Positions 1 through 9,849 of a DNA stretch of 34,796 bases are shown piece after piece; position 1 is the stretch's first letter; every line of letters begins with the position of its first letter. Below the pieces are notes generated by a model. That model saw nothing but the letters and a program-made list of their open reading frames with translations. It was not told the origin of the DNA and did no database searches. This DNA comes from Bdellovibrio sp. (GTDB lineage: Bacteria > Bdellovibrionota > Bacteriovoracia > Bacteriovoracales > Bacteriovoracaceae). The DNA is taken from the NCBI GenBank assembly GCA_020720455.1, contig DYOQ01000013.1, forward strand, positions 17,428-52,223, in the 5' to 3' direction. The translations under genes and the position numbers were made by a program.

Positions 1-1
1 G

Positions 2-856
2 TTTGTTGATACAGAAAGAGCAAAGAAAGATGCTGTAAAAAAGTATATGTCTAAGCATAAGCAAAACAAACCGAGAAAAAAAATACGAGAGGATGAGTTA
101 TCAGAAGATTTAGATGCTGGGCAACCAGCAGAAGAGTCTGTTTCCAATGATAAGATAGACAAAAATTCTAGCTATGGTAAAGATGAAATTGAAAGCTTAG
201 GCTACGATAATTTTTTCCAACTATTCTGGAGGATAGAGTATAGTACAGCATCTGATCAACATGGTGATGAAGCTAATACTCCATTAACTTCTTTTTTGGG
301 TGCCGGTTTTTCTTATGATTTTTATTTTGGTAACAAGCGGGCCCCTTTTACGATGGGAGTTTTAGCAGAGATTGTTAAGTACCAATCAATTAGTGCAAGT
401 GATGGTATAACTGGTACGTATGATTTATCGAATGCTCTTAATTGGCGTGTTAGTTTTGGAAAAGCTGGTTTTTGGAAAAGAGCTGGGCTTATTGGATATG
501 TTGAAAATCAGATGATCCCAGTAATTGAAGTCGCAAACTCTGTTGCCATTTCAATTGAAATTGGTGGCACATGGTTTGGTGCGGGATTGCTTTGGAATAT
601 TAAAACACCAAGCTTTAGGTTCAAAATTTTTCCTAATGTGGCCCTTGGAAGTTTCACTGCAGAGCTGGCCTCAAGTGGAACAATTCTTGCCTCAGAAGTT
701 GATAGAAGTGGATTTAAGTATGGAATGCTGCTTGAATCTGGTGGCGATACTATCTTTTTGAGTGCTGATGCGATGATGATGTCATTCAGTGACAAGAGTG
801 GTAATGGCCAAGCCAATATCACTGCTATTATTGGGAGAGTTGGTAGAAGATTTTAG
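2..856 (+). CDS. Outer-membrane beta-barrel protein, C-terminal part (5' end outside window)
   Basis: The frame is open from base 2, so the first Met (base 47) is probably internal and the gene begins upstream of the window. After about 15 upstream codons comes a very charged linker (KPRKKIRED, then SEDLDAGQPAEES). From about residue 60 of the Met-47 numbering there are alternating hydrophobic/polar strands rich in Gly and aromatics (SFLGAGFSYDFYFG, IGGTWFGAGLLWNI). The protein ends in ...GRVGRRF; a terminal Phe is the usual signal for Bam-dependent outer-membrane insertion. This suggests a periplasmic/charged N-terminal part followed by an 8-12 strand barrel, an architecture also suggested for the two barrel proteins at 30.8-33.0 kb. 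The family is not recognised; cargo or ligand is unknown. It converges on the Asp-rich gene with 19 bases between the stops and no clear terminator. Confidence 0.65.
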   Translation, partial: FVDTERAKKDAVKKYMSKHKQNKPRKKIREDELSEDLDAGQPAEESVSNDKIDKNSSYGKDEIESLGYDNFFQLFWRIEYSTASDQHGDEANTPLTSFLGAGFSYDFYFGNKRAPFTMGVLAEIVKYQSISASDGITGTYDLSNALNWRVSFGKAGFWKRAGLIGYVENQMIPVIEVANSVAISIEIGGTWFGAGLLWNIKTPSFRFKIFPNVALGSFTAELASSGTILASEVDRSGFKYGMLLESGGDTIFLSADAMMMSFSDKSGNGQANITAIIGRVGRRF

Positions 857-875
857 TAAGTGCCGAAACAATAAT

Positions 876-1193
876 CTATTGCAGTTTCTTCCCTTTTTTC
901 TTGAACGTTTTTAACACGCTTTCGTGTATCTTTTGAAGAATGAATTTTGCTTCTCTACGAAGATCATTGTTGTAGATATACCGATACATATTTTCAATAT
1001 CATTAGAACTTTTAAATGACGTTAGTTTCTTAGAGCTATTTGCAACGATTGCTTCATCTAGGTCAACTTCAATATCAACATCAGCATCAGCATCAGCATC
1101 AACATCATCTAGATCTGGATCAATATCGGTGTCAATATCTGAATCAACATCTGGACTAGTGTCAGTGTCAATATCTTTGGTTGTCGATTTCAT
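876..1193 (-). CDS. Small Asp-repeat protein of unknown function
   Basis: 105 aa. Residues 7-47 are almost entirely Asp alternating with small or hydrophobic residues (DVDADADADVDIEVDLDEA). The remainder is a basic helical tail (DLRREAKFILQKIHESVLKTFKKKGKKLQ). No signal peptide is seen, so the protein is probably cytoplasmic with a strongly bipolar charge. The acidic part is encoded by a hexanucleotide tandem repeat (see the repeat entry). The ATG is preceded by GAGGTAATAA, a usable ribosome-binding site. It follows the regulator gene by 41 bases on the same strand and may share its transcript. I do not recognise the family. Acidic D-x-D runs can bind Ca2+ or mimic nucleic acid, but nothing here proves either. 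Confidence 0.6.
   Translation of the reverse strand: MKSTTKDIDTDTSPDVDSDIDTDIDPDLDDVDADADADVDIEVDLDEAIVANSSKKLTSFKSSNDIENMYRYIYNNDLRREAKFILQKIHESVLKTFKKKGKKLQ
1079..1108. repeat. Hexanucleotide tandem repeat CATCAG/CATCAA inside the Asp-rich gene
   Basis: Three exact CATCAG units (1079-1096) are followed by the near-copies CATCAA and CATCAT. On the coding (minus) strand this reads GCTGAT/GTTGAT, giving Ala-Asp and Val-Asp dipeptides. Slippage by one unit keeps the frame and changes the protein by two residues. Confidence 0.8.
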
Positions 1194-1234
1194 TTATTAC
1201 CTCACATTTTATTGAACGGCGGTGATAAACAATA

Positions 1235-2800
1235 TTAGGCTTCTTCCTCTTGTTTTATCATTCCATAACAATGTAGCTTGTTATACAATGTTTTAACCGT
1301 AATTCCCAGTTGTTTGGCAGTTTTTGTTTTATTTCCTTTTAGCTGGTCTAATGTTCTACAGATGTGTAACTGTTCTAGTTCTTGAAGAGTGACATCTTGA
1401 TATATTGCAAAATTATCTTGTTGTTCCTCAATAACTTGTTCAGTCTCATTAATTACTATGCGATCTTCTGTTAACTCATCAGGAAGTTGACACTGGTCAA
1501 TTATTGGCATTGTTGATAAAATGTCTGCTCTTTCAATAATATTTTGTAGTTCTCTAATATTTCCTGGCCACGAATGTTCTTTTAAACAACGTATTGCGCT
1601 AGGAGAAAACGATTTCATATTGCTAGCATCTTTTTTGTTATTTAAGAAAAAATTTGCCAAGTGTTCAATATCTCCTGCTCTATCTCGTAGGCCTGGAACA
1701 CTTAGAGTTACTTTACCAATTGCATAGTATAGATCTTCGCGAAATTTGTTTTCTGAAATTTTATTCTCAATATTTGCAGAAGTAGTCGCCATGACTCTTG
1801 CATTTGAGTTGAATGTTGTTTGAGAAGATGATTTAAATCCAATGCCATCTTCTATAAATCGTAGAAGTTTAGATTGAAGTAGCATGTTAAGAGCATCAAC
1901 GTTATGTAAAATTATTGTTCCATTGTTAGCAGCTTCTAATAATCCTATTTGAGAAAAGCTGTTTGCGCCGACTCTTTCAATTCCAAATAGTTCGTTGTCT
2001 AGGTCTCTTTCGCTTCTTGCGCTACAGTCAATCACAATAAATGGCCCTTGAAACCTGTGACTTCTACAATGAATCCTTCTTGCTAAAATCTTTTTTCCTG
2101 TTCCGGCTTCACCTTTGATTAAAATATTTAAATCGCTAGTTGAAATCTTATCAGCAAGCTTAATAACCCCCATCATTTTTTCTGAGCGGCCAATGATCTC
2201 TTTCTCATCTACTTGAAACTCGCTGGCAAGTGATAGTCCATTTACTTGTTTTGAAAGTTTTGCTTCAGTCTCCTCTATTTTCCTCATAAGAGAGAGGTTG
2301 AGGTCGTTTGCTTCCATAAATAGTCTAATATTTCTTAGCGGCTTTGATAACTTTTTAAGAATTGAAAATATTTTGGTGATGTCATCTCTTGAAAATTGAG
2401 ATGGATTACCATTTTTGATTTTAGTTCTGACGATCGCAATTGTTACCCCTTCTTCTAGTATTGGGACACATAACTCTGCAACAATCTCTTTATCTATCCC
2501 AATAAACATTGGGTCATTTGAAACATTATTGCTAAAATATGGCATCTTTGTTTTTAAAACATGGGCCAAAATACCTTTAACCTCTCCAATGTCTTGAGGT
2601 GATACAGTTTCGTTTTCTATTGAGACTAATTGAAGAGATATTTTTTCTATAACTCTATAAACCTCAATTGAATCTGCTGGGACAATTATAGAAATAAATT
2701 TTGATAGTTCAGTAAAGAAAATTGATTGATCAAGTGTTGCAAGTAGAACTGTTGATAAGCTAGTAAGTTCATTTGAATTTTCGCTGTGTAATTGGTTCAT
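1235..2800 (-). CDS. NtrC-family (bEBP-like) transcriptional regulator with degenerate AAA+ site
   Basis: 521 aa in three parts: a GAF-like sensor (about 20-160), an AAA+ domain (about 200-430) and a C-terminal Fis-type helix-turn-helix (about 475-513, NKTKTAKQLGITVKTLYNKL). Walker A is present (GEAGTGKK, 230-237), as is the sensor II region (WPGNIREL, 411-418). Other hallmarks are altered. The loop that should read GAFTGA is ERVGANSFSQIG (275-286). Walker B, normally LFLDE, is IILHN (296-300), so both acidic residues are gone. The sensor I Asn is Ser341. The second Arg finger (PspF R168 position) is Ala360; the first (R354) remains. In this family GAFTGA contacts sigma-54 and Walker B hydrolyses ATP, so the protein probably binds DNA without driving sigma-54 open-complex formation. 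DNA target unknown. Confidence 0.9.
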   Translation of the reverse strand: MNQLHSENSNELTSLSTVLLATLDQSIFFTELSKFISIIVPADSIEVYRVIEKISLQLVSIENETVSPQDIGEVKGILAHVLKTKMPYFSNNVSNDPMFIGIDKEIVAELCVPILEEGVTIAIVRTKIKNGNPSQFSRDDITKIFSILKKLSKPLRNIRLFMEANDLNLSLMRKIEETEAKLSKQVNGLSLASEFQVDEKEIIGRSEKMMGVIKLADKISTSDLNILIKGEAGTGKKILARRIHCRSHRFQGPFIVIDCSARSERDLDNELFGIERVGANSFSQIGLLEAANNGTIILHNVDALNMLLQSKLLRFIEDGIGFKSSSQTTFNSNARVMATTSANIENKISENKFREDLYYAIGKVTLSVPGLRDRAGDIEHLANFFLNNKKDASNMKSFSPSAIRCLKEHSWPGNIRELQNIIERADILSTMPIIDQCQLPDELTEDRIVINETEQVIEEQQDNFAIYQDVTLQELEQLHICRTLDQLKGNKTKTAKQLGITVKTLYNKLHCYGMIKQEEEA

Positions 2801-2843
2801 TTTGCCCTCTCTTCAGTAATGATTAGTCAGTATGGAAACAAAT

Positions 2844-2858
2844 TTGTGCAACGCACAA
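2844..2858. promoter_or_regulatory. Palindrome TTGTGC-AAC-GCACAA, candidate operator
   Basis: A perfect 6-base inverted repeat with a 3-base spacer lies just downstream of the candidate -10 box and about 40 bases before the regulator start codon. The position suits an autoregulatory operator, since Fis-type helix-turn-helix dimers bind palindromes. It is the only clear dyad in this gap. Confidence 0.4.
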
Positions 2859-2867
2859 CATGGACAC

Positions 2868-2895
2868 AGTGTATCATTGCCTGAAAAAAATACAA
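2868..2895 (-). promoter_or_regulatory. Candidate sigma-70 promoter for the regulator gene
   Basis: On the minus strand TTGTAT (2895-2890) and TACACT (2873-2868) are separated by 16 bases, in the 172-base gap upstream of the regulator ATG. Each box matches the consensus only moderately, so this is a tentative call. Confidence 0.35.
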
Positions 2896-2972
2896 GACTA
2901 AAATACTCCTGTATTGAAATTTTTACACTTTTGGCTTGATTATAAGTAGTTATTGTATGTTATTTTTTCACT

Positions 2973-5900
2973 TTACAAGGTTAAGAGGTGTTCAAAATCT
3001 TTCATTGTTAGCCTACCTGTAAAATAATTATCATCATTTTCAGGTAAGAGGTCATTAAACAACTCTCGTTTGCTATCTTGTAATTTCAATACCTTTTCTT
3101 CAATACTGTCTTTAATTATAGGACGGTAGACTGTCAAAGTATTTGCCTGTCCAATTCTATGAGCTCTATCGATTGCTTGATTTTCAACTGCTGGGTTCCA
3201 CCACGGGTCCATTATAAAGACGTAACTTGCAGCTGTCAGGTTTAAGCCAACCCCTCCCGCTTTTAAACTAATAAGGAATATTTTATTTTTTCCAGATTGA
3301 AAGAGGTTTAATTGCTCTTGTCTCTTTTTAATATTTTGAGATCCATCAATTCTTGATGTTCTCCAATGTTTTTCTCTTATTGTTTTTTCAATAATGTCTA
3401 AATATGTAGTGAATTGTGAGAAGACAATTGCCTGATGTCCTTCAGTTTGTATCTGATCGAGTTGTTCAATTAAAAAATTAATTTTGGTTGATGATGGGCC
3501 ATTTGGATTCCAAAGGCACCGTTGCCTTAATCTTAGGAGCCCGGTAAGAATTTCTCCATACTTGTTTTTAGAAACAGTTGTAAGAATAGTTTTCTTAATT
3601 TCTGCCAGCGTGTTGTTATATTGGTCTCTTTCTGATTCATCAAAAGTAAGAAGATAGTCGTGCTGTATTTTAGGTGGTAGATCTTTGAGTACATTGCTTT
3701 TTGTTCTTCTTAGAATGAAAGGGGCCGCAATCTTCTTTGCCATTTCCCTTCCCTGTTTATTTGATACCGCTCTTACCAAATTTAGATCACCCCAGATGCC
3801 AGGGATGCCAAGATCGATAATGTTATAAAATTCTGCGAGATCATTTTCTACGGGAGTTCCTGTGACACATATTTTAAAATCTGCACTAATATTTCTTGCG
3901 GCAAATGCTCCAAGTGAACGAATATTTTTAAGATGCTGAACTTCGTCTAAGATTAGAATATCAAAGTGCTCTCCTTGAAGAGATTTATTGTACTCTTTTT
4001 TCATTATCCCATAACTTGTAAGAATGATTTTTGTATCGTCTGAAAAGACTCTGCCGCCTCCGTGATAAATATATGACTTTAGGTTGGTAAACTTATTAAT
4101 TTCGTTTTCCCAATTTAGAAGAAGAGAGACTGGAGAGACAACGAGGACTCTTGATATTTTATCGTATAGAGTTTCAATAAGTGAGATTACCTGAAGTGTT
4201 TTTCCAAGTCCCATATCATCAGCAAGGCATGCTCCCATTTTGTTCTCATAAAGAAACTGGAGCCAATTATGTCCAACTTTTTGATAAGGTCTCATTACTG
4301 AATCGAGATGTGGTGGTAGGTGGTATTCTGGAATGTTTGTTAGATTTCTAAGCCTGTTACAAGTATCAATCTCTTCTTGAGAAAGAGCTCCATCTAGGCC
4401 AAGCTTTTTCATTTCAAACAGTTCAAAGATTCTAGCTTTGGTAAAAGCAATACGTAATTTGTTGCTATTTTCCTCACTGTCCTGATTGATACTGGTTTCA
4501 TCTTTGTTGTTTGAAAGGGTATCAAGGTCTTGGCCTTTTGTGTAACGCTTGATGAATTTCAGTAGCTCGATTTGATCTTTGGTAAGAAGAATCATTCCAC
4601 TATTTGATACTGAAAGGCCCGTTTCAATATCAGCATTTTTTATTATTTCTAAATCAGAATCAGAAATACTTAGTTCTAGATCAAACCATTTTTCTGCTGA
4701 ACCTCTTCTTTCGAATCGCATACTTGGAGTCCATGATTTCGTTTTATCATTATCGTAGTATATAAGTATTTTGTATGGTGCAGTTTCATAGGTAAATTGT
4801 GATAGGCCTTGAAACAGCAATGAGTGGTTGATTTCAAAAACAATCTCATTAAGGTCGTGATGGTGAATAGCAAATCTGAAGAACGAAGGCCCGAAACTAT
4901 TGACGATGGAGGTTATAAGCTTCTTAATATGAATGGGGTCGTATTTAAACATTCTTCCACTGTGAATATCGTATTGATGTATGAACGGTGATCCTAAGAA
5001 AGATTCAAGAGAGTCAGTTAATGTTGATTTATAGCTGTTTCCGATCAACGTTTTCTTAAAAATCTGATCACCTGTTTCAATTGCATCTTTAACATTTACC
5101 AGAAATTCGTATGCAGTTGTTTTTTTTCTGAAACTTCCTAGTAACCCGTTTTGAAAAGTTAGGTGTTGGAGTATTGTTGGAACTGGAGCTATCGTTCCAG
5201 TTGGATCAATGAATCTAATAGTTACATGAAGGTGGTGTCTTTTCTTTCCATTTGCAATGTATAAGTGGGCAGTAGTATCTAACTTCTCCATGTCGCAAAT
5301 GTTTGTTCCATCTACAGCTAATTTTACAGTGCCCTTAAGTGAAAGTGATAAAATAGATGTGATAGTATTGTTTATAAAATTAATATCTGGATAGGTTAGA
5401 TCTTTAACAATGATTTTTAGTAGTTCTCTGATTGAATGTGGAATGTGCATCAAGTTTCCACTTTCCCAGTTGAAAACATAGAGCCCCTCAAAAAGAGTTA
5501 TCTTTTCATTGTTAACATTATCAGTTCCGATATGAGAAAATATCACTTCTGGGTATGTCGTAATATCGTTTTGGTTTAAATTTTTAAGATTGTTTATATT
5601 TAAAACAAGAGTCCCTGTGAAATTTTCTGGTATCGGAAAATTTATCGTTCTTTTATTACTCAACATATATTGAAGCGTGGAGTATGGAACGGTAGATGGT
5701 ACTGTGGCCAGTTCGTGAGGACCTCTAATAATAGTTCCGTACCTGTTAGGAGTAGCACAATATGGAGAAGATATCAGTGGTAGACTTGGGAATTGTTCTG
5801 TACCTGAATAGTTGCTTTGTAAATGAAACCCTAAATATAAGGCGACACAATGTTTACAGTGTTCCTCGCTGGTCCACTCTAAACAGTCACACCTTGAACT

Positions 5901-6146
5901 AATTGGCCCTTCGTCGGTACCCTCTAGTCTGCCTTTATATACAATTTTAACTTGAAACTGTTTTTCGTCTCTAACTATTCCAGATACAACGTAATAGTGA
6001 TCTTCATTTTTTTTAGAAAATGAAACACAGATTTTCCCAAGCTTGAGAAGCTTGGCAGCTGGTAAAATAAGATCATCTCTAAAATAGCTTCTGGACTTCT
6101 GGACGATCTCATCGCTAATGGTAAGTTCGTTCTCTTTTAAACTCAA
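2973..6146 (-). CDS. SWIM zinc-finger SNF2-family helicase/translocase
   Basis: 1057 aa. The N-terminus has a SWIM finger (C86-x-C88 ... C97-x-H99) that probably binds nucleic acid or protein. A long poorly conserved middle follows. The C-terminal half is a complete Swi2/Snf2 motor: motif I DDMGLGKT (about residue 645), motif II LDEVQ (about 732), motif III VTGTPVEN, then the second RecA lobe with SLKAGGVGLNL, DPWWNPAVENQA and DRAHRIGQ (about 997). Such proteins are ATP-dependent double-stranded DNA translocases that remodel protein-DNA complexes. The start is TTG at 6146, two bases after the rpoD stop, with no good ribosome-binding site and no nearby ATG, implying coupling to rpoD translation. 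In-operon position suggests a transcription or replication housekeeping role, but that is inference. Confidence 0.9.
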   Translation of the reverse strand: MSLKENELTISDEIVQKSRSYFRDDLILPAAKLLKLGKICVSFSKKNEDHYYVVSGIVRDEKQFQVKIVYKGRLEGTDEGPISSRCDCLEWTSEEHCKHCVALYLGFHLQSNYSGTEQFPSLPLISSPYCATPNRYGTIIRGPHELATVPSTVPYSTLQYMLSNKRTINFPIPENFTGTLVLNINNLKNLNQNDITTYPEVIFSHIGTDNVNNEKITLFEGLYVFNWESGNLMHIPHSIRELLKIIVKDLTYPDINFINNTITSILSLSLKGTVKLAVDGTNICDMEKLDTTAHLYIANGKKRHHLHVTIRFIDPTGTIAPVPTILQHLTFQNGLLGSFRKKTTAYEFLVNVKDAIETGDQIFKKTLIGNSYKSTLTDSLESFLGSPFIHQYDIHSGRMFKYDPIHIKKLITSIVNSFGPSFFRFAIHHHDLNEIVFEINHSLLFQGLSQFTYETAPYKILIYYDNDKTKSWTPSMRFERRGSAEKWFDLELSISDSDLEIIKNADIETGLSVSNSGMILLTKDQIELLKFIKRYTKGQDLDTLSNNKDETSINQDSEENSNKLRIAFTKARIFELFEMKKLGLDGALSQEEIDTCNRLRNLTNIPEYHLPPHLDSVMRPYQKVGHNWLQFLYENKMGACLADDMGLGKTLQVISLIETLYDKISRVLVVSPVSLLLNWENEINKFTNLKSYIYHGGGRVFSDDTKIILTSYGIMKKEYNKSLQGEHFDILILDEVQHLKNIRSLGAFAARNISADFKICVTGTPVENDLAEFYNIIDLGIPGIWGDLNLVRAVSNKQGREMAKKIAAPFILRRTKSNVLKDLPPKIQHDYLLTFDESERDQYNNTLAEIKKTILTTVSKNKYGEILTGLLRLRQRCLWNPNGPSSTKINFLIEQLDQIQTEGHQAIVFSQFTTYLDIIEKTIREKHWRTSRIDGSQNIKKRQEQLNLFQSGKNKIFLISLKAGGVGLNLTAASYVFIMDPWWNPAVENQAIDRAHRIGQANTLTVYRPIIKDSIEEKVLKLQDSKRELFNDLLPENDDNYFTGRLTMKDFEHLLTL

Positions 6147-6148
6147 AG

Positions 6149-7918
6149 CTAATTATCTGAGTACGATTTTAAAAGTTTAGATCTGCTAGGGTGACGAAGT
6201 TTTCTCAGTGCCTTAGCTTCGATCTGCCTAATTCTTTCTCTCGTTACAAAAAAGTCTTGTCCAACCTCTTCAAGAGTGTGGTCAGATTTTTCTCCAATGC
6301 CAAATCTCATTCGAAGAACCTTTTCTTCTCTTGGGGTAAGCGTTGAGAGTACGGCCCTTGTTTGCTCGGAAAGAGTAACACTCATAACTGCTTCTTGAGG
6401 TGAAATTATTTTTTTATCTTCAATAAAATCACCCAAGCTTGAATCATCCTCTTCGCCTATTGGAGTTTCAAGAGATATTGGTTCTTTAGAGATCTTAAGA
6501 ACTTTTTTAACTTTATCTACATGCAAATCCATCTCTTTTGCAATCTCTTCAGGCGTTGGTTCTCTTCCTAATTCTTGAATAAGTTGTCTTGATGTTCGAA
6601 CCATCTTGTTAATTGTCTCAATCATGTGAACAGGAATACGTATTGTTCTGGCTTGATCAGCGATGGCCCTCGTAATAGCTTGTCTAATCCACCAAGTTGC
6701 ATAGGTTGAAAACTTATAACCTCTACGGTACTCAAATTTATCAACGGCCTTCATAAGTCCGATGTTACCCTCTTGGATAAGGTCTAAAAATTGCAAGCCT
6801 CTGTTGGTATATTTTTTAGCTATAGAAACAACTAATCTAAGGTTTGCCTCAACTAGTTGTGCTTTTGCTCTATCGGCCTTTTCTTCACCTTTAAGAATAA
6901 TTTTATAAACTTTTTCAACATCAGAAAAATCCATTCCAGCTTCATGTGATAATCTTCTTAATTTTCTAAGAATATCCTCTTGATTTCTTACGAGCTGTTC
7001 AATCTTGGCATCTGTAGTAAACAGGCTTTTAGCAAGCTGTCTTTTGAATGAATCATCTTCCATTATTTTTGTATGGAGTGATCTATACTCTTCGATGCTA
7101 CTAACTTCTAAAAATTTAAAAATTCTATCTTGTTGTTCATATAGATCTTTAAACTGCAAATAGTAATTCTTAACCGGATCAACAAAACTATTAATCTGTT
7201 TTCTGTTAAGTGTTAGGTCGGCCAGTGGCTCAGCAATAGCATCAAACTCTTTTCTTTGTTCTGGTGTAAGTTTGCGATGATACTCTTCTTCGCTCTCTTC
7301 AGCTTTGTCAGCTTCAAGTTTGGCCAAAGCTTTTTCGATCATGGAAATAACTTTATAGAGCTTGTCTTTAACAACCTCAACTTCTTTAGCAGTTGATTCA
7401 TCGTCTAAGCCTCTAACTAAGTCTTTTATGTACTCTTGTTGTGTCTCTTGTTGTGATTCAATTTTATCTTTTAATGAGATGATTTCTCTAAGCGCGTGCG
7501 TTGAAGATAGTGCAGAGACTACGATCTCTCTTTCTCCCTCTTCAATCTCTTTTGCAATGACAACTTCTCCATCTCTAGTTAGAAGTGCAACAGATCCCAT
7601 TCTTTTTAAGTATAGTTTTACAGGGTCAGTGGAAGCAGATTTAAGTTCAGCTTTTTCTTCTCTTGAAAGGGTCTCTTCAATTATTTCTGTTCCATCTAAT
7701 CTTATACCATCATCTTTGACAGCGACATCGTCGCTTACAATTTCAATTTTTAAACTTTTGACTTTTGTGATAATGGCATCAAGCTCATCTGGAAGAATAA
7801 TTGATGCAGGGATAGCATCGTTAATCTGTTCTGGAGATAACAACCCGTTATCTTTTCCAGCGTTTAAAAGCTTGGAGAACTCTTTTGATTTCAAAAAAAG
7901 ATTAAGGGCAGATGACAT
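6149..7918 (-). CDS. rpoD: Primary RNA polymerase sigma factor (sigma-70)
   Basis: 589 aa from the ATG at 7918, which has AAGGAG five bases upstream; the GTG two codons earlier overlaps that site and is rejected. Region 1.1 is present at the N-terminus. Region 1.2 is [22 protein letters not shown] long acidic non-conserved insert follows. Region 2 is nearly invariant ([44 protein letters not shown]), including the -10 recognition and melting residues. Region 3 is [11 protein letters not shown]. Region 4 ([16 protein letters not shown], then [20 protein letters not shown]) reads the -35 box. This is the housekeeping sigma, not an alternative one. It follows dnaG by 35 bases, the conserved macromolecular-synthesis arrangement, but rpsU is not next to it here. 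Confidence 0.98.
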
Positions 7919-7953
7919 TGACACTCCTTATTTGTTACTACAATTAAACTAGC

Positions 7954-9849
7954 TTACATGGATTTTAGTTTTTCGATATCTTGTTGCACAAAAAGCAGTT
8001 CCCTCATCAGTTGGGCCAAATCTTCTTCAGTGTCACACATTTTCTGTCTCTTTTTCAGATCGTCTCTTTTTTGTTTCAACTGCTCAAGAAGCAATCGGTT
8101 TTTGAGATCACTTGTAAGCTTGTTTAAAACTTTGTCATCCAACGAAACAGGTTGATATCGAAATAACGCTCCTCCAACAGCTTCTTTAAGGCCTATGGGA
8201 TAATTACCATTATTGACAATAGCACCCATAACGGAACTATAGTCACTTTCGTCTATCTCATAAATTAACTCTTTTAGCCTTAAAACATATCTTTTTACAT
8301 CATTATGTACCACAAAAGCAAGTAGTTCATCTATTGAGCTGTGTGTAATGATGTCGGGGTGCGCAACTAATTCTCTAATGAGAAGTTTCTCCACTCGAGA
8401 TATTTCAACCAAGACCTCTTGTTCTAGTAGTGGAGGTAGGCCAACGTCTACTTGTTGAGCACTTTCAGTTGGTGTTTCAGGTTCTACGAGCATAGGTTCA
8501 TCCCGGGCAACGTAATCTCTGTTTGGTCGAGTGTTTGAATTACTATTATTTTTTTCTAAAAAAGTTTTATACATCTGGAGTATGGTCTGACTATCTGATT
8601 GCAACTTTAATCTTTTGGATGCAGTGAGAACTCTTTCTGTGGCCCTTAAATCTTCACCAAGAGGGGATAGTAGGTCAAATACTACCTCTAAAATTTTTAG
8701 TTTTTTATCAGATAGCAGCGGAATTACTTCTGGAATTACGGAATCGAGTTTGAAATCGATAAAAGCAGGGGCCGTATCAATTATTTCTTGAAAAGCAACA
8801 GGGCCACGATTTTTTAAAAATTCATCAGGGTCTTTGAAGTTACCAAGGGTAATAATTTTGGGAACAACCCCCTCGGCAAGCGCTGTTCTATTTAGCCGAT
8901 TCATTGCTAACATTCCAGCAGAGTCTGAATCTAGTGCCATGATGAAATTTTTTGTTAGCTGCTTAAGAGATGTTATTGCGTATTCGCTGGTTGCTGTTCC
9001 CATGACTGCAACGCTATTTTTAAAACCATATTGAAAAAGAGCGCGAACGTCCATATACCCTTCAGCTAGAATAACGTGGTCTTTTTCTCTGATGAAAGGA
9101 ACTGCCATATGTTTTGCGTAAAGAATATTTCTTTTTTTAAAAAGATGTGACTCTTTAGAGTTAACATATTTTGCTGGGTGGTTTGTTACTGTACGTCCAC
9201 CTAGCCCACAAGGATTTCCGCCACCGTCCCAAATTGGAAATATTATTCGGTTGTAAAAAGTGTCGTAGTTGCCAGAGTTACCACTAGTAATAACTCCTAT
9301 TTCTAGTGCCATTGCTATGGCGTTAATCTTGTCGTTTTCATTTGGAATAGATTCAAGATATTTAGTAAGAATATTTGCTTGAGGCGCAAACCCTAGCGAA
9401 AATGTTTTTGCATTTTCTGAGGAGATGCCTCTACCTGTTACAAATTGTTCATATTCAACACATTTTCCATTCTCAACATGCAAGCGGTATAGCTTGATGG
9501 CCCTAGATAGAATTTTTTTCCCTAACTCTTTTCGAGGATCTTTTTTCTGTGCCTTAAACAGGCCATCTGTTGAGATGTTAAGGTTATTAGCAATATCTTT
9601 GATAGCATCTAGGAAGCCGATGTTTTTATATTTTTCAACAAACAAGATGGCATCTCCACCTGTTTGACATGAAAAGCACATGAACATCCCTTTGGTATCG
9701 TTTACGGTCAAGGAGGGGTCTTTATCTGGATGAAAAGGGCAAAGCCCCATTTGATAACGACCTTTTTTTGATAATGGAATGTATTTTCCAATGATACTGG
9801 AAATTGGAGTATCTCTAATTACAGTTTTTAGTTCATCAAGATCGTTCAA
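7954..9849 (-). CDS. dnaG: DNA primase
   Basis: 631 aa. The N-terminal CHC2 zinc ribbon has ligands C37, H40, C58 and C61 (CPFH...CFSC). The catalytic core includes a TOPRIM domain with ILAEGYMDV and MALDSDSAG, the acidic residues that bind Mg2+ for RNA primer synthesis. The C-terminal part (about 480-631) is helical and charged, as expected of the DnaB-interacting domain. The start is TTG at 9849 with AAGGGG eight bases upstream; the next Met (residue 34) lies inside the zinc ribbon and would destroy it. The gene lies between a multihaem cytochrome and rpoD, with short gaps, so it is probably co-transcribed with both. Confidence 0.97.
   Translation of the reverse strand: MNDLDELKTVIRDTPISSIIGKYIPLSKKGRYQMGLCPFHPDKDPSLTVNDTKGMFMCFSCQTGGDAILFVEKYKNIGFLDAIKDIANNLNISTDGLFKAQKKDPRKELGKKILSRAIKLYRLHVENGKCVEYEQFVTGRGISSENAKTFSLGFAPQANILTKYLESIPNENDKINAIAMALEIGVITSGNSGNYDTFYNRIIFPIWDGGGNPCGLGGRTVTNHPAKYVNSKESHLFKKRNILYAKHMAVPFIREKDHVILAEGYMDVRALFQYGFKNSVAVMGTATSEYAITSLKQLTKNFIMALDSDSAGMLAMNRLNRTALAEGVVPKIITLGNFKDPDEFLKNRGPVAFQEIIDTAPAFIDFKLDSVIPEVIPLLSDKKLKILEVVFDLLSPLGEDLRATERVLTASKRLKLQSDSQTILQMYKTFLEKNNSNSNTRPNRDYVARDEPMLVEPETPTESAQQVDVGLPPLLEQEVLVEISRVEKLLIRELVAHPDIITHSSIDELLAFVVHNDVKRYVLRLKELIYEIDESDYSSVMGAIVNNGNYPIGLKEAVGGALFRYQPVSLDDKVLNKLTSDLKNRLLLEQLKQKRDDLKKRQKMCDTEEDLAQLMRELLFVQQDIEKLKSM

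Follow-up and report, generated by a model that had tools for sequence, protein, structure and literature searches.

A sigma-54 activator relative with a degenerate AAA+ site and a candidate operator at its own promoter in Bacteriovoracaceae

What role can be left to a relative of the sigma-54 enhancer-binding proteins (bEBPs) when most of the catalytic residues of its AAA+ domain have been replaced? This question is raised by an open reading frame with an ATG start (1235..2800, minus strand) in the 34,796-nucleotide stretch of DNA analyzed here (the window; bases 17428-52223 of its contig, from a host genome of 2.7 Mb). The frame encodes a regulator of 521 aa.

Domains and active-site motifs of the regulator

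The regulator was characterized using Pfam, an AlphaFold model, a fold search and alignment. It carries the bEBP domain, with a match to PF00158 (Sigma54_activat) of 135.2 bits against a cut-off of 20.2, together with matches to AAA_lid_14 (73.7 bits) and HTH_8 (34.0 bits). At the N-terminus, a weak GAF_2 match below the cut-off was obtained, and Pfam returned no match to Response_reg, the receiver domain expected of a VpsR- or NtrC-type protein. From the N-terminus onwards, the protein comprises a GAF-like domain (residues ~1-150, then a linker helix), an AAA+ domain with a degenerate active site (residues 199-371), a lid (residues 372-447) and a Fis-type helix-turn-helix (residues 470-514). 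The AlphaFold model has a mean pLDDT of 85, and its N-terminal domain is mixed alpha/beta. Modeling of the AAA+ part had been proposed as a check on the original prediction, and it gave the bEBP AAA+ fold: the best bEBP AAA+ folds matched with Z scores of 24-29, and the top structural matches were NtrX, NtrC1 and FleQ (Z 28-29). The protein fell short of two NCBIfam equivalog cut-offs, those of TyrR (576; the protein scored 167.7 bits) and nifA (528.85; 216.2 bits).

The active site is a mixture of kept and replaced residues. Walker A (GEAGTGKK, 230-237) keeps Lys236, and the sensor II Arg is kept as Arg416 (in WPGNIREL). In Walker B (GTIILHN), the acidic pair has become His299-Asn300; the sensor I Asn has become Ser341 (in RVMATTS); and in FREDLYYA, Arg354 is kept while the second Arg finger is Ala360. 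Of the Walker B pair, the sensor I Asn and the Arg fingers, all belonging to the motif set of a sigma-54 activator, Arg354 alone remains. The L1 loop reads ELFGIERVGANSFSQIGL, is without GAFTGA, and is two residues shorter than the loop of an intact relative, L078 (ELFGHEKGSFTGAINTKVGL). The original prediction had listed the His-Asn pair, the missing GAFTGA, Ser341 and Ala360 along with the kept Walker A, sensor II and helix-turn-helix; every one of these items is present, and the residue numbering is correct. A bEBP AAA+ fold and a Fis-type helix-turn-helix without GAFTGA are what mark the sigma-54-independent bEBP relatives, and the regulator has this combination. Judged by these motifs, it lacks the defining features of a sigma-54 activator and fits the sigma-54-independent kind in all but its N-terminal domain.

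Conservation and ancestry of the degenerate form

A genome scan with the single regulator sequence gave no matches, and an alignment-based scan recovered the orthologues; full-length ones were found in nearly all family genera searched. The relatives named here belong to the Bacteriovoracaceae, the Halobacteriovoraceae and related Bdellovibrionota. As the nearest orthologues are just 42-46% identical to the window regulator, the window genome is far from any sampled genome.

The comparison with homologues was based on an alignment of 72 degenerate orthologues, nearly all from Bacteriovoracaceae and Halobacteriovoraceae, with 19 intact reference sequences; some of the loci are redundant because they are closely related, which makes the counts non-independent, and start codons are uncertain in some orthologues. 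Such an alignment had been suggested along with the original prediction, and it showed that the losses are clade-wide. GAFTGA was present in none of the 72 and the Walker B DE pair in one (L103; 71/72 are without it), whereas all 19 intact references keep the DE pair and both Arg fingers. Walker A is retained (both glycines in 72/72, Lys in 70/72), the Walker B Asp is still present in about a third of the degenerate clade (26/72), and the second Arg finger is gone in over half of it, the window protein included. One half of the clade tends to retain the Walker B Asp and the second Arg finger, with most of the L1 loop deleted and the sensor II Arg often lost. In the other half, to which the window protein belongs, Walker B carries Asn, Lys or His, Ala or Ser often replaces the second Arg finger, and remnants of the L1 loop are left. 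The most degenerate orthologue (L205:4730-6334, minus strand, in G019) has no L1 loop, LEH in Walker B and GRAGDGKH in Walker A; the small gene described below is still downstream of it, and a beta-propeller (TolB-like) gene lies upstream.

Several catalytic residues are missing together, as might be seen in a decayed gene or after a sequencing or assembly error, but full-length open frames over dozens of genera and dN/dS values far below 1 leave this explanation practically no probability and rule out recent decay or sequence error. In close pairs, dN/dS of the AAA+ part was about 0.01-0.12 (NG86; pairs with saturated dS were uninformative and left out), and by this measure the AAA+ domain is still under strong purifying selection despite its dead-looking site. 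Within the clade, the helix-turn-helix has a mean pairwise identity of 77%, and the AAA+ and GAF parts have 41-42%. In the helix-turn-helix, GITVKTLYNKLH is nearly invariant among the 72 degenerate orthologues. The notion of a stable new role rather than decay, put forward in the original prediction, is thus backed by the clade-wide degenerate form, purifying selection, the near-invariant helix-turn-helix and the retained Walker A Lys. Sister genomes were also searched for intact motifs; these were seen in one deep-branching relative (L078) and in other families, and in none of the near sisters, which is the pattern expected of an ancestral state.

L078 lies within the family and joins the degenerate clade with an SH-aLRT of 100. 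Its motifs are intact (GSFTGA, LDEV, ATN and both Arg fingers), and it shares the small gene downstream, and the promoter and palindrome upstream, with the degenerate orthologues. The paired genes at the locus in other Bdellovibrionota families (L111, L114, L158-L160, L165, L173 and L174) are intact as well: they resemble the window regulator in domain order and in having the small protein gene downstream, but they keep GAFTGA, the Walker B DE pair and the Arg fingers. Because L078 and these genes are intact, the ancestor was, to judge from the sequences of its descendants, a normal sigma-54 activator. A quick tree favored a single loss (support 80; 68 on a reduced set); since placing L078 with one or the other half of the degenerate clade gave trees that were not rejected (p-AU 0.56 and 0.62), one loss and two losses both stand. 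Sigma-54 activation therefore appears to have been lost anciently, one or two times.

Loss of rpoN was ruled out as the cause of the motif loss, as rpoN is kept in 37/39 genomes. The window genome itself keeps rpoN and several other activators (L001-L006) in which the Walker B pair is present and the loop is GAFTGA-like, so it was this one activator that left the sigma-54 system. No convincing sigma-54 promoters were found upstream of the intact relatives. One family genome (G022, 95% complete) with a degenerate regulator (L019) gave no rpoN match, which may reflect an assembly gap.

The gene pair, its neighborhood and its promoter

A small basic protein of 105 aa is encoded 41 nt downstream of the regulator gene (876..1193, minus strand). 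It has a core, FKSSNDIENMYRYIYNNDLRREAKFILQKI (consensus NFRxxxDIENFYRFIHENxLRREA), and a Lys-rich tail, and is predicted to form three helices. Wherever the flank of an orthologue was long enough, the small gene was found after the regulator gene, at a median distance of 57 nt. The protein had no family match in Pfam, NCBIfam or PHROGs, and a PDB structure search gave no match at E up to 10, a result that says little for a short helical query. Among 192 genomes sampled across the phylum, it was found in 169, nearly always in single copy, and is possibly a signature protein of Bdellovibrionota. In several other families, including the one to which G029 and G069 both belong, the small gene is at a different place, and a stretch of about 5 kb around it contains no regulator. 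A match at L042 was discarded as a false pattern match. The window copy, and only this copy, has an extra N-terminus with an acidic Asp-rich repeat, DIDTDTSPDVDSDIDTDIDPDLDDVDADADADVDIEVDLDE (residues about 8-47).

The usual position of the regulator gene is between tolQRAB and ftsEX-envC. tolB lies directly upstream in 64/66 orthologous loci; downstream, the small gene is usually followed by a gene for an HD-domain protein (62/69 loci), beyond which come ftsE, ftsX and genes for an EnvC-like M23 peptidase and a Ctp protease (55-57/59 loci). The locus is rearranged in the window genome (window 1-9849 and L203): SNF2-rpoD-dnaG replaces tolQRAB, and an opposite-strand ORF of 269 aa (47-856) occupies the place of the HD gene; ftsE-ftsX-envC-ctp are on the same contig, just past the window edge (L203). 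The orthologues do not share the synteny with rpoD and dnaG, and none of SNF2, rpoD and dnaG was found near them; a functional link between the regulator and these three genes was ruled out on this ground.

Upstream of about 60 of the 66 orthologues, a block TCTTGTAA...TATTAT is conserved. Its family consensus, AACACyyGAGnATTTTAGTCTTGTAAAAATTTCAGACGCACTGTATTAT, reads as a sigma-70-type promoter. The predicted promoter of the window regulator (2868..2895, minus strand) consists of a -35 element TTGTAT (2895-2890), a 16 nt spacer and a -10 element TACACT (2873-2868). It was located by conservation rather than from mapped transcripts; a consensus promoter scan did not list it, and it is a weak match to the E. 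coli consensus. Upstream of the -35 element lies the conserved element CAATACAGGAGTATTTTAG (2898..2916, minus strand; family consensus AACACyyGAGnATTTTAG). The window copy of this element holds an inverted repeat, ATAC-N4-GTAT.

A candidate palindromic operator, TTGTGCGTTGCACAA (2844..2858, no strand assigned), starts at about +3 of the inferred transcript. Its pattern is TTRYGC-N3-GCRYAA, to which the window copy conforms perfectly, and enrichment was seen for spacer 3 only. At 27/74 loci, a strict copy lies in the 120 bp before the start codon, compared with 0.1 expected from the density elsewhere in the same loci (about 250x), and the palindrome starts 38-39 nt from the TCTTGTA block in 39/56 sites. 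In some orthologues (e.g. L062, L079 and L114) it is degenerate or absent. Outside the regulator promoter, exact copies are rare, from none to a few per genome, and in several genomes their number is close to that of the control pattern; the G002 genome has a single occurrence of the pattern, which is the one at the regulator promoter. The window copy scores terminator-like; an RNA hairpin or attenuator was considered and rejected: over the loci, pair 4 is A-C in 14 cases versus G-U in 8, and pair 2 is mostly mismatched, so that a DNA palindrome fits better than an RNA stem. As the promoter and palindrome are also present at motif-intact L078, the operator would be independent of the motif loss. 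The palindrome could, at the same time, belong to an unrelated regulator.

Possible modes of action

We consider it fairly probable that the protein is a regulator under GAF control which binds nucleotide without hydrolysing it, acts at a sigma-70-type promoter and represses mainly the unit formed by its own gene and the small-protein gene. Having descended from a sigma-54 enhancer-binding activator, it would have become a sigma-54-independent transcription regulator, for which we infer from sequence that: the GAF-like domain may sense a ligand or a partner; the AAA+ domain would bind nucleotide without productive hydrolysis and serve as an oligomerisation or signal-transmission module; the Fis-type helix-turn-helix would bind the palindrome TTRYGC-N3-GCRYAA; and the regulator, whose main site would be the palindrome at the transcription start of its own sigma-70-type promoter, would repress the regulator and small-protein genes. 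The autoregulated unit would sit in an envelope/cell-division gene cluster (tol, ftsEX, envC), which hints at a link to division. A palindrome placed over the transcription start most likely means repression of its own unit, and autoregulation is the simplest reading of a near-invariant Fis-type helix-turn-helix in a protein whose own promoter carries a palindrome at a fixed position.

Known relatives offer partial parallels. TyrR of Escherichia coli also belongs among the bEBP relatives and represses sigma-70 promoters, including that of its own gene; it differs from the window regulator in its N-terminal domains, and the window protein scores below the TyrR cut-off, as given above. VpsR of Vibrio cholerae acts at sigma-70 promoters and, like the window regulator, has the bEBP fold without GAFTGA (AAA+ domain of the regulator against 7v2b: Z 26.4, rmsd 2.5 over 238 residues, 37% identity). 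VpsR binds c-di-GMP (also according to the title of 7v2b), and its N-terminal domain is receiver-like, whereas that of the window regulator is GAF-like. Regulators without GAFTGA that act at sigma-70 promoters make different use of nucleotide: Rhodobacter NtrC needs ATP binding but not hydrolysis, VpsR needs no ATP, and Caulobacter NtrC needs Walker A and B residues (PMC10274813; PMC12421884). Like the window clade, the NtrC proteins of Rhodobacter capsulatus and Caulobacter have lost the GAFTGA loop by a deletion found throughout their lineages. They use sigma-70 promoters (PMC10274813), but they are two-component response regulators, and that of Caulobacter still needs the Walker B residue.

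These precedents (VpsR and R. capsulatus NtrC; PMC10274813), together with the embedding of the regulator gene in the tol-ftsEX-envC cluster, would also suit a VpsR-like activator of sigma-70 promoters at many sites, perhaps those of division or envelope genes, with the palindrome at its own promoter being one of them. We regard this as a minority reading that deserves some weight; against it, the exact palindrome is rare elsewhere in the genomes and lies downstream of the inferred -10, which is a repressor position. It is improbable that the protein is instead a partner subunit, joining the hexamers of intact sigma-54 activators to tune them, with its own motifs dispensable. The window genome does have rpoN and several intact activators, and some orthologues keep Arg fingers, residues that work in trans in a bEBP ring; however, such a subunit would have no need for an invariant DNA-binding domain, and over half of the clade, including the window protein, is missing the second Arg finger. 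Slightly less probable still is a regulator that continues to hydrolyse ATP without GAFTGA, in the manner of Caulobacter NtrC, which needs its Walker A and B residues (PMC10274813): clade members reading LIIDD retain the Walker B Asp, but the window protein is without both acidic residues, the sensor I Asn and the second Arg finger. Some ATP hydrolysis in the part of the clade that retains the Asp is possible.

This kind of regulator is known (VpsR, Rhodobacter NtrC), while the lineage, the operator candidate and the partner protein seem to be undescribed; no literature on this locus was found among open-licence papers. More speculatively, and with less than an even chance in our estimation, the regulator and the small protein may form a two-part regulatory unit of Bdellovibrionota, in which the small protein is an ancient co-regulator and which the Bacteriovoracaceae rewired from sigma-54 to sigma-70 control of envelope/division genes. 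If true, this would provide a many-species example of an AAA+ activator that lost its motor and kept its DNA target. Loss of sigma-54 contact is known regulator by regulator; here, a whole family can be followed and intact relatives are present at the same locus, so that the path from an ATP-driven activator to a passive DNA-binding switch could be reconstructed and tested. The locus also draws attention to a small, undescribed protein shared by most sequenced Bdellovibrionota, and it may mark a control point within the tol-ftsEX cluster of predatory bacteria.

Two further degenerate bEBP relatives were noticed. One (L008/L200; L008 at 34673-35626 of contig C70 of G000) is a protein of 318 aa without a receiver domain and has orthologues (50-62% identical) in all family members searched; the neighbors of its gene encode a TPR protein and an intact activator of the response-regulator type. 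The other (L009/L201; L009 at 45159-47102 of contig C12 of G000) is a protein of 648 aa that includes a GAF domain. It is conserved across most of the family, and its gene adjoins those for a CdaA-type diadenylate cyclase and a member of the phosphoglucomutase/phosphomannomutase family.
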